From contig JAFTVY010000061.1 in NCBI GenBank assembly GCA_017465545.1, positions 1 through 43,219 of the forward strand: a stretch of 43,219 nt of DNA, given 5' to 3'. Shown in pieces: positions 15,085 to 42,646 of this stretch. The translations under genes were made by a program, and so were the position numbers. Source of the stretch: Ruminiclostridium sp. Lineage in GTDB: Bacteria; Bacillota; Clostridia; Oscillospirales; Ruminococcaceae. How positions within the stretch are numbered: the stretch's first letter is position 1; every line of letters begins with the position of its first letter. A model generated the notes under the pieces. It was not told where the DNA came from and did not search any database. It saw nothing but the letters and a program-made list of their open reading frames with translations.

Positions 15085-15172
15085 ATAAATTGGAGTCTGT
15101 CGGTTGGCTGCACCCACGGGCAACGTCACCGCAGGCGAAATTTAAAATCCATCAATTGCCCTAAAGTAAGTA

Positions 15173-15333
15173 GTTATTGCCTATGGCAATAACTGCGGCA
15201 GTTGACAAAATCTATGATTTTGTCAACATATGATTCCCACAACTTCGTGCGTAGCACGAAACATCACTCCGACAGAGTCGGAACATCACACGGCGTAGCC
15301 GTGCATCACTTCGTGCAAGGCACGAAACATCAC
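15173..15333. repeat. Hairpin array A (variable palindromes, 7-nt linkers)
   Basis: Six small palindromes lie in a row. Two larger ones come first: GTTATTGCC-TAT-GGCAATAAC (15173-15193) and GTTGACAAAATC-TAT-GATTTTGTCAAC (15201-15227). Then come four compact units: ttcgtgcgtagcacgaa (15244-15260), tccgacagagtcgga (15268-15282), acggcgtagccgt (15290-15302) and ttcgtgcaaggcacgaa (15310-15326). The compact units are separated by exactly seven bases reading acatcac, acatcac, gcatcac and acatcac. The array fills the gap between the pnuC terminator and the pyk terminator, which has no gene. A related array lies at 42496-42646. Confidence 0.93.
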
Positions 15334-15345
15334 TTTGTATGTCCA

Positions 15346-15371
15346 AACCCCCGAAGAAATCTTCGGGGGTT
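15346..15371 (-). terminator. pyk terminator
   Basis: A perfect 11-bp stem (AACCCCCGAAG / CTTCGGGGGTT) around AAAT lies five bases past the pyk stop. On the minus strand only TTTGG follows, so the U-tract is weak. The hairpin array starts right behind it. Confidence 0.72.
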
Positions 15372-15376
15372 AACTG

Positions 15377-42040: not shown

Positions 42041-42466
42041 TTACTGTTCGTTTTCGTAGTAATTAAAGGCTTCTTCGTATAATGCTCTGCATTGTTGTTC
42101 ATCGTTGTAAGACAAGCAATCACCAGCGTAACAAAACGTAAAGAAAGGTTCTTTTTCATTCATAGAAGAGGGAAGCCTTTGCCATAATTCGTACATTTTT
42201 CTGCTGAATTCCTTAATATTGCTTTCCTGATAAACAGACTTCAGAATACCCATTAAGAGAGATCCGAATTTGTCTTGATCGATTGTAGAGGTCTGCATTA
42301 AAGAAAACAAATGAAGCATTGCATCCTTGCATTTCATTCCTTCTAAATTCAGAAGCTCTTCATTCGAAGGATCGTTGAGAAACAACTTATCCAGCACAAG
42401 CTGATACTCATCGTATCTGCTATATCCTATTGAATATAATAAAGCATATACAAACAGTTCTTCCAT
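42041..42466 (-). CDS. Unrecognised helical protein
   Basis: No family was recognised in this 141-residue protein. It looks all-alpha, with no signal peptide or membrane segment (ELFVYALLYSIGYSRYDEYQ, ALYEEAFNYYENEQ at the end). It is acidic and A/T-rich in codon use, like the Nudix gene it faces. Small helical proteins of this kind are often immunity or accessory proteins, but nothing here proves it. It lies between cassette-like unit B and hairpin array B, so this short region is accessory in character. Confidence 0.6.
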   Translation of the reverse strand: MEELFVYALLYSIGYSRYDEYQLVLDKLFLNDPSNEELLNLEGMKCKDAMLHLFSLMQTSTIDQDKFGSLLMGILKSVYQESNIKEFSRKMYELWQRLPSSMNEKEPFFTFCYAGDCLSYNDEQQCRALYEEAFNYYENEQ

Positions 42467-42495: not shown

Positions 42496-42646
42496 ATCCA
42501 TTGACCTTGTCAATGGATACCACAGCTTCGTGCGAAGCACGAAACATCATTCGGCGAAGCCGTACATCACTATTGCCGACGGCAATAACATCACTTCGTG
42601 CAAGGCACGAAGCATCACTCTGAAATTTGCCTATAGCAAATTTCAG
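42496..42646. repeat. Hairpin array B (variable palindromes, 7-nt linkers)
   Basis: Six palindromes in a row: tccattgac-ctt-gtcaatgga (42497-42517), ttcgtgcgaagcacgaa (42527-42543), tcggcgaagccgt (42551-42563), tattgccgacggcaata (42571-42587), ttcgtgcaaggcacgaa (42595-42611) and ctgaaatttgc-ctata-gcaaatttcag (42620-42646). The linkers are seven bases each: accacag, acatcat, acatcac, acatcac and gcatcac (plus one base). The last hairpin contains the ahcY stop codon. One 17-base unit is identical to a unit of array A at 15310-15326. Confidence 0.93.

Follow-up and report, generated by a model that had tools for sequence, protein, structure and literature searches.

A dispersed array of hairpins with a constant seven-base linker in a Ruminiclostridium genome, and its possible origin in S23p/IVP elements

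The window analysed here, a 43,219-nt stretch of Ruminiclostridium sp. DNA, contains an array of hairpins joined by a near-invariant seven-base linker (array A, 15140–15333), which is a Gut-1-like array or dispersed palindromic mosaic and forms part of a larger pattern. We judge it, with a probability of roughly 0.55, to be a dispersed copy, without an open reading frame (ORF), of the array that belongs to an S23p/IVP element, its linker being the recognition word of the cognate protein. Array A is a one-sided element whose GTGATG (Gut-1) orientation is the minus strand, the plus strand reading ACATCAC. As the sequence-only reading had described, it consists of two larger palindromes and then four hairpins, which measure 17, 15, 13 and 17 bases and each have RCATCAC behind them. 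On the plus strand these units are H2 (TTCGTGC-GTA-GCACGAA, 15244–15260) with linker ACATCAC (15261–15267), H3 (TCCGAC-AGA-GTCGGA, 15268–15282) with ACATCAC (15283–15289), H4 (ACGGC-GTA-GCCGT, 15290–15302) with GCATCAC (15303–15309), and H5 (TTCGTGC-AAG-GCACGAA, 15310–15326) with ACATCAC (15327–15333). The larger palindromes are AGTTATTGCC/GGCAATAACT (15172–15194), which is part of an expanded first hairpin, H1, and GTTGACAAAATC/GATTTTGTCAAC (15201–15227). The flanking genes encode an NMN transporter (PF04973, 14359–15045, plus strand) and pyruvate kinase (PF00224, 15377–17146, minus strand); the latter has a terminator-like hairpin (15346–15371, minus strand), so that the minus strand reads pyruvate kinase, terminator, array A. 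Array B (42527–42646, minus strand) carries four hairpins in its hairpin–linker part (42527–42618), with linkers at 42544 (ACATCAT), 42564, 42588 and 42612, and a terminal hairpin H6 (42620–42646) that overlaps the stop of an S-adenosylhomocysteine hydrolase frame. The 141-aa open frame adjoining array B (42041–42466) had no Pfam match.

Taken by itself, the linker 7-mer shows no more than a mild excess in the window (12 occurrences against 7.3 expected, a count equalled in 7 of 100 shuffles), and it is the combination with hairpins that departs from chance expectation: six linker–hairpin–linker units occur in the window and none in each of 200 dinucleotide shuffles. Across the 2.6-Mb genome, 83 linker-pair matches were found, at least one of them in an apparent coding gene (C85), and the reversed pattern gave none. 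The arrays are thus dispersed and not confined to the two places seen in the window, and they are not degraded copies of one fixed sequence. The contrast between a constant linker and variable hairpins whose two arms change together, first noted from array A, holds for the wider set of units. The 13-mer hairpins are 88% paired with a covariation score of 0.396 (0.127 when shuffled), and the 15-mers are 92% paired with a score of 0.755 (0.253 when shuffled), neither score being equalled in 500 shuffles; the 15-mers were unremarkable on two of five measures, namely double-change pairs (84 of 500 shuffles) and pair types (284 of 500). These values come from a list in which every distinct 13-mer (15) and every distinct 15-mer (17) was typed, a set biased to pairing because the selection script required at least four matched pairs. 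Folded as single-stranded DNA, array A is predicted to form five separate hairpins with the linkers open, bar one base each in two of them (z of −7.9 for the plus and −7.2 for the minus strand). In the best fold predicted for it as RNA, the two TTCGTGC hairpins pair with one another (z of −4.3), and array B gives a less clear RNA fold (z of −2.3, with 6 of 200 shuffles equally good). The strand asymmetry of G.T against A.C pairs, by which an RNA might be told from a DNA, stood at 34 to 20 (p = 0.076), at 18 to 8 in the control and at 4 to 2 in the one-sided arrays, and does not separate the two.

In the genome of the window (G000), 31 one-sided arrays were catalogued, array A among them; the catalogue omits two-sided arrays and those with CATCAT linkers by locus (L040, L045, L086 and L104–L106). 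Most arrays follow a common plan, in which AAATCCATC is followed by a variable H1, by H2 (mostly TTCGTGC), by H3–H5 between linkers and by H6. Within the catalogue H5 is mostly TTCGTGC and H6 mostly GAAATTTG..CAAATTTC. The order of units is therefore not free, the last linked unit being mostly TTCGTGC. Three-linker matches number 49 in G000, and the runner-up among 197 genomes has 13. Such a match occurs in 36 genomes, a count in which several cases that resemble repetitive coding sequence are included without classification, two (G022 and G171) having been set aside by eye as apparently of that kind. Among genomes of the same genus, high copy number is seen in G000 and G060 and, among 35 others, to a lesser degree in G028 alone. 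Loose linker pairs of the CATCAC type number 98 in G060 (control 10) and 31 in G061 (control 13), both of which are draft MAGs. Plasmid and phage records gave no blastn match to the array, and one exact three-linker pattern had no match in viral contigs. ACTTCAC linkers (for example ACTTCACGAGCCGAAGGCTCGCTTCAC) mark a second dispersed family, of which a few copies each are present in G000 (C10, C82), G028, G060 and G061, and other palindromic mosaics (CCCCTTTCCTCAGGGGAAAGGGGG..., GTCACCTGCGGTGAC...) recur on the upstream side of many G000 arrays, as at about 2550–2700 of L042.

The arrays lie preferentially behind gene ends. Twelve of the 31 catalogued arrays lie between convergent genes, five between codirectional and two between divergent ones, while five fall inside an open frame (frames being uncurated and of at least 90 codons) and seven lie at contig ends, where position could not be judged. 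Read in the GTGATG orientation, 19 of 58 arrays have the end of a long open frame no more than 45 nt before their start; among control positions, 3 of 99 do (1/35, 2/33 and 0/31 for the opposite side at three offsets). This test used stop-to-stop frames of at least 100 codons and arrays with at least 400 nt on the tested side; among the 58 arrays are orthologous copies drawn from as many as four genomes, and L040, L045, L086, L104–L106, L074, L087, L092 and L112–L114 are omitted. Array A itself starts one base beyond the 45-nt limit from the end of the pyruvate kinase frame. Such a distribution is what would be expected of an RNA tail useful to the host, transcribed in the GTGATG direction, which would protect or end mRNAs and whose linker would be bound by an RNA-binding protein or RNase of the host. 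The placement of array A on the minus strand behind pyruvate kinase and its terminator fits this explanation, as do folds that beat those of shuffled sequences, and to this extent the earlier suggestion of a structured RNA tail agrees with the position of the arrays. We nevertheless regard a host-useful tail as unlikely, given the concentration of high copy numbers in two genomes of the genus and the comparison of orthologous sites, where relatives differ in the hairpins at one and the same gene and other genomes show no array in the stretches inspected.

At the pyruvate kinase site, an array is present in G000, G060 and G061, with a right junction common to all three and with the usual last hairpin H6 absent from each of them. 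No array was found within the 420 nt inspected behind pyruvate kinase in seven further genomes (G028, G032, G014, G009, G018, G029 and G005); in G028 (C14, L239) a minisatellite of units of about 100 bp lies behind pyruvate kinase where the three other genomes have the array. Among the three orthologous arrays, H1 is wholly different; two of them have TTCGTGC as H2, and the third has ATTTGC..GCAAAT there. At a second site, L042, the linkers are of the GTGATG type in G000 and G060, one G060 linker reading GTGAAG. The same site in G061 has two GTGAAG linkers and different hairpins between unchanged outer parts, and in G028 no array was seen in the short stretch before the contig end. The left part of array A (15129–15242) is 99.1% identical over 114 bases to the G060 element beside the NMN-transporter gene, and its right junction (15310–15372) is 98.4% identical over 63 bases to the G060 pyruvate kinase element, these two G060 elements lying on different contigs. 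Array A thus looks like a mosaic of two elements. Its left part is also 99% identical over 100 bases to an element on C38 of G061, so the donor of that part cannot be named, and the parents suggested by these identities are candidates. From the site comparisons and the mosaic together it follows that hairpins, linkers and larger parts have been exchanged, which bears out the proposal, made from the recurrence of units in array B, that arrays are built by unit exchange. When filled and unfilled versions of the two sites were compared by eye, no clear target-site duplication was seen, nor was a terminal inverted repeat, the other mark of a MITE, seen on the arrays, the two ends of which read differently. 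Together with the dispersal, the filled and unfilled sites fit the other role that had been put forward for array A, that of a mobile palindrome nest.

Exchange of this kind raises the explanation that the arrays are passive DNA palindromes, spread and homogenised by homologous recombination and gene conversion alone, with no dedicated protein. The apparent two-element mosaic of array A, the exchange of hairpins and even of a linker at orthologous sites, and the tandem doubling of a 66-bp three-hairpin unit at L083 (6487–6625) would all be natural products of such a process. Recombination accounts for mosaics, however, and not for arrival behind many genes in one orientation, and it leaves the match between linker and protein described below unexplained; we hold it to be quite unlikely as the whole explanation.

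The link to a dedicated protein comes from a second, two-sided form of the array, found on C46 of G000 and in other families of the order, in which three hairpins joined by GTGATGY are followed by three joined by RCATCAC. Hairpins with GTGATG linkers do occur in other gut Clostridia, as had been said when array A was first described. A search of 394 genomes of the order placed a core word of this form, GAACGATGTGTTCCG, in 28, with none for the reversed control among the matches listed. Thirty candidate two-sided loci were inspected, two of which (L124 and L141) are not arrays. A tRNA gene is present in 19 of the 30 core-word loci, and the tRNA terminator often directly precedes the array. Three ORFs behind two-sided arrays are S23p/IVP four-helix-bundle proteins (PF05635, E-values of 3e-26 to 2e-28), and the two of them tested as TIGR02436 gave E-values of 1e-29 and 6e-32; behind some other two-sided arrays the ORF is broken, shortened or swapped for another gene. 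Of 147 genomes of the order, 71 have PF05635; none of 14 control genomes does. A repeated 7-mer (p ≤ 0.01) was found upstream of 53 of 91 IVP-gene rows from the order and upstream of 5 of 47 control genes, the 91 rows including both pieces of L144 and excluding L130, upstream regions with N and those shorter than 250 nt. In the wider phylum the signal was weak (6 of 27 IVP genes). A tRNA gene on the same strand lies within 700 nt upstream in 46 of 87 IVP rows, among which are L130 and both L144 pieces, all three with a tRNA.

Individual loci of this two-sided form vary. In G000, L086 (C46) has its two-sided array directly upstream of the PF05635 gene and behind an apparent tRNA-Cys 3′ end, the tRNA being cut by the contig end here and whole in G028 (L087). 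At L104 (G000 C30), a two-sided array with CATCAT linkers lies directly upstream of a PF05635 gene, and part of the array is repeated at the contig start. L135 (G147 C25) has terminator and two-sided array twice, 939 bp apart, with the PF05635 gene behind the second copy and a different open frame behind the first. At L130, L133 and L144, small and unrelated-looking genes stand close behind the PF05635 gene or its remnant, as if they were cargo; by eye we take these to be GNAT-, nucleotidyltransferase- and pyrophosphatase-like. Two-sided copies behind GCCGAGTGTTCTTAAGGACACTCGGC or a near variant were seen at L127 and L142, where no PF05635 ORF was seen, and also at the contig-cut loci L121, L128, L129 and L138. 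G112, with six core-word matches, represents another lineage with its own dispersed form. Many of the upstream regions in L147–L236 have plain tandem heptamers without hairpins (such as GAGAAATTAGAAAT, CATAATTCATAATG and AGAGAAAAG) before other PF05635 genes.

Movement of REP/BIME-like palindromes by a Y1 (RAYT/IS200-like) transposase is very unlikely, for although modular palindromes with linkers resemble BIMEs and three Y1_Tnp fragments occur in G000 and one in G028, no linker pair is found in the available flanks of these four places (three of them at contig ends), G050 and G059 have two-sided arrays and no Y1_Tnp match, and the arrays go with PF05635 instead.

Comparison of 94 PF05635-like proteins with their upstream regions revealed that the linker follows the protein. 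Twelve linker classes were distinguished (GTGATG, ATGATG, GTGAAG, ATGAAG, GTGAAAT, ATGAAAT, ATGAATT, GTKATA, ATGATA, AYGATGTT, GCTAAAT and GTTATGA), the repeated upstream word having been typed manually and not blind to the proteins. The remaining 30 proteins went into a 'tandem/other' group, where in many cases inspection by eye showed plain tandem heptamers and no hairpins. In a tree of the IVP proteins built without the N-terminus, linker class (13 groups) requires 19 changes, with a minimum of 12, against a shuffled mean of 60.1, and none of 200 shuffles was as low; L130 (internal deletion in the PF05635 gene) and both pieces of L144 (broken frame) are omitted from this tree, and L176, with 14 nt upstream only, is kept in 'tandem/other'. 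The first linker base goes with residue 4 of the protein, being G with Ser in 25 of 27 rows that have a letter there and A with Asn or Asp in 30 of 30, in a comparison that omits the GCTAAAT and GTTATGA classes (four rows, with Ser in two and a gap in two). L131 is an exception to this rule. Six more loci from G028, G060 and G061 fit it without fail, two of them being near-identical orthologues. Likewise, all 12 rows with GAAG linkers have Gln and all 19 with GATG types have Leu or Ile, Leu being found in other classes too. L195 has Gln and a GAAG linker even though the rest of its protein places it in a supported clade where GATG types prevail. Independent linker/residue pairs number two on supported branches and eight on all branches; because just two independent switches are on supported branches, we treat the residue code as a lead and not as a result. 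Joint inheritance of neighbours could give a match between linker and protein too. The match nonetheless suggests that the linker may be the word recognised by the IVP protein.

Array A shares its linker class, GTGATG, with the heptamer array upstream of the IVP gene on C46, one of four PF05635 matches in G000 (on C30, C46, C60 and C87). There is no PF05635 ORF beside array A. Nor was a PF05635 protein of the GTGATG class found in G060, in spite of its many CATCAC-type arrays, its three genes having GTGAAG, ATGAAA and ATGATA linkers; in G061 one GTGAAG PF05635 gene was found and a C-terminal fragment to which no class was assigned. These two genomes count against the reading preferred here, as does the failure to see a target-site duplication or a terminal inverted repeat.

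In the reading we prefer, that of array A as a dispersed passenger of an IVP element, the protein-linked members of the array family would be those directly upstream of S23p/IVP four-helix-bundle genes. The hairpins would act as interchangeable struts that keep the seven-base linkers apart and largely unpaired, presenting them as single strands, and the linker would be what the matching protein subfamily recognises (GTGATGY/RCATCAC in the case of SKLRELSM). The IVP protein, probably a pentamer to judge by its relatives, could then bind several linkers together. Together, array and protein would form a small element able to move by its own means and to settle behind tRNA genes, and one-sided copies such as array A would be the docking array alone, spread behind gene ends and later swapping hairpins and recombining among themselves. 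A more far-reaching version is tentative and, in our estimate, falls short of an even chance. It holds that a simple code would let S23p/IVP proteins read the seven-base word (near the N-terminus, Ser for G and Asn/Asp for A as the first base, and Gln for GAAG), that array and protein would form a class of mobile elements without a known transposase behind tRNA genes, that Gut-1 would be half of its docking array, and that array A would be an ORF-less passenger. Compared with the sequence-only reading, whose interpretation is partly supported, what has been added is the association with PF05635 and tRNA genes, the link to Gut-1 and the constraint on unit order, all of which it had missed. If an IVP protein were found to bind its own linker and not its neighbour's, this would give a widespread protein family its target and an orphan RNA family its partner, and would bring to light a small mobile element of unknown mechanism.

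Among known systems, a CRISPR array was rejected, the repeats being 7 nt long (against about 20–40 nt) and the 'spacers' being recurring palindromes. Behind genes of enterobacteria, BIME and REP elements form dispersed intergenic mosaics in which palindromes are joined by linkers. The present array family is likewise a dispersed intergenic palindromic mosaic; unlike BIME and REP, it leaves the hairpin sequence free and keeps the linker fixed, and no Y1 partner was seen nearby. For linker–hairpin arrays with PF05635 genes we found no description in the openly licensed literature, which does not by itself prove novelty. PF05635 proteins have been described as resembling Avd, an accessory protein of diversity-generating retroelements (PMC10053308), and cas loci are reported to contain PF05635 genes (PMC3936711).

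The closest RNA counterpart is Gut-1 (RF01706), entered by Weinberg et al. 2010 (PMC2864571) under 'Human gut only' as a noncoding RNA from environmental sequences only. At the gathering score, the window had no Rfam match. A weak match to Gut-1 covers 15259–15335 on the minus strand (29.2 bits, with a gathering score of 50), with an E-value of 4e-4 in 201 bases; in 341 bases the score is 23.3 bits and the E-value 0.021. Within this match, array A has three hairpins with a repeated linker on one strand, as the Gut-1 consensus does, and like Gut-1 it comes from gut bacteria and has no assigned function. The Gut-1 linker is GUGAAAU and that of array A GUGAUGU, and array A has more hairpins and no adjoining PF05635 gene. 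Among the PF05635 loci, nine matches to Gut-1 above the gathering score were found in the upstream arrays of 8 of 16 loci, all with GTGAAAT, ATGAAAT or ATGATA linkers, and four GTGATG-class loci that were compared were below the cut-off. The arrays thereby connect S23p/IVP proteins with Gut-1 RNA. Because its Gut-1 score fails and it has no ORF, array A is itself filed neither under Gut-1 nor as an IVP element.

On the protein side, S23p/IVP proteins are described in print as without known function, the X. campestris (Xanthomonas) S23p is a homopentamer, and the intervening sequence of Coxiella 23S rRNA has tandem GACAGAT heptamers before its S23p ORF (PMC4990558). A relative in the PDB, 2rld, has five chains. 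The S23p/IVP elements of Coxiella and others lie inside 23S rRNA and have plain tandem heptamers, whereas in the present arrays, which lie behind tRNA or protein genes, hairpins separate the heptamers, and the S23p ORF is missing from array A. What S23p/IVP elements and these arrays have in common is an S23p ORF with heptamers upstream and the idea of a selfish element.
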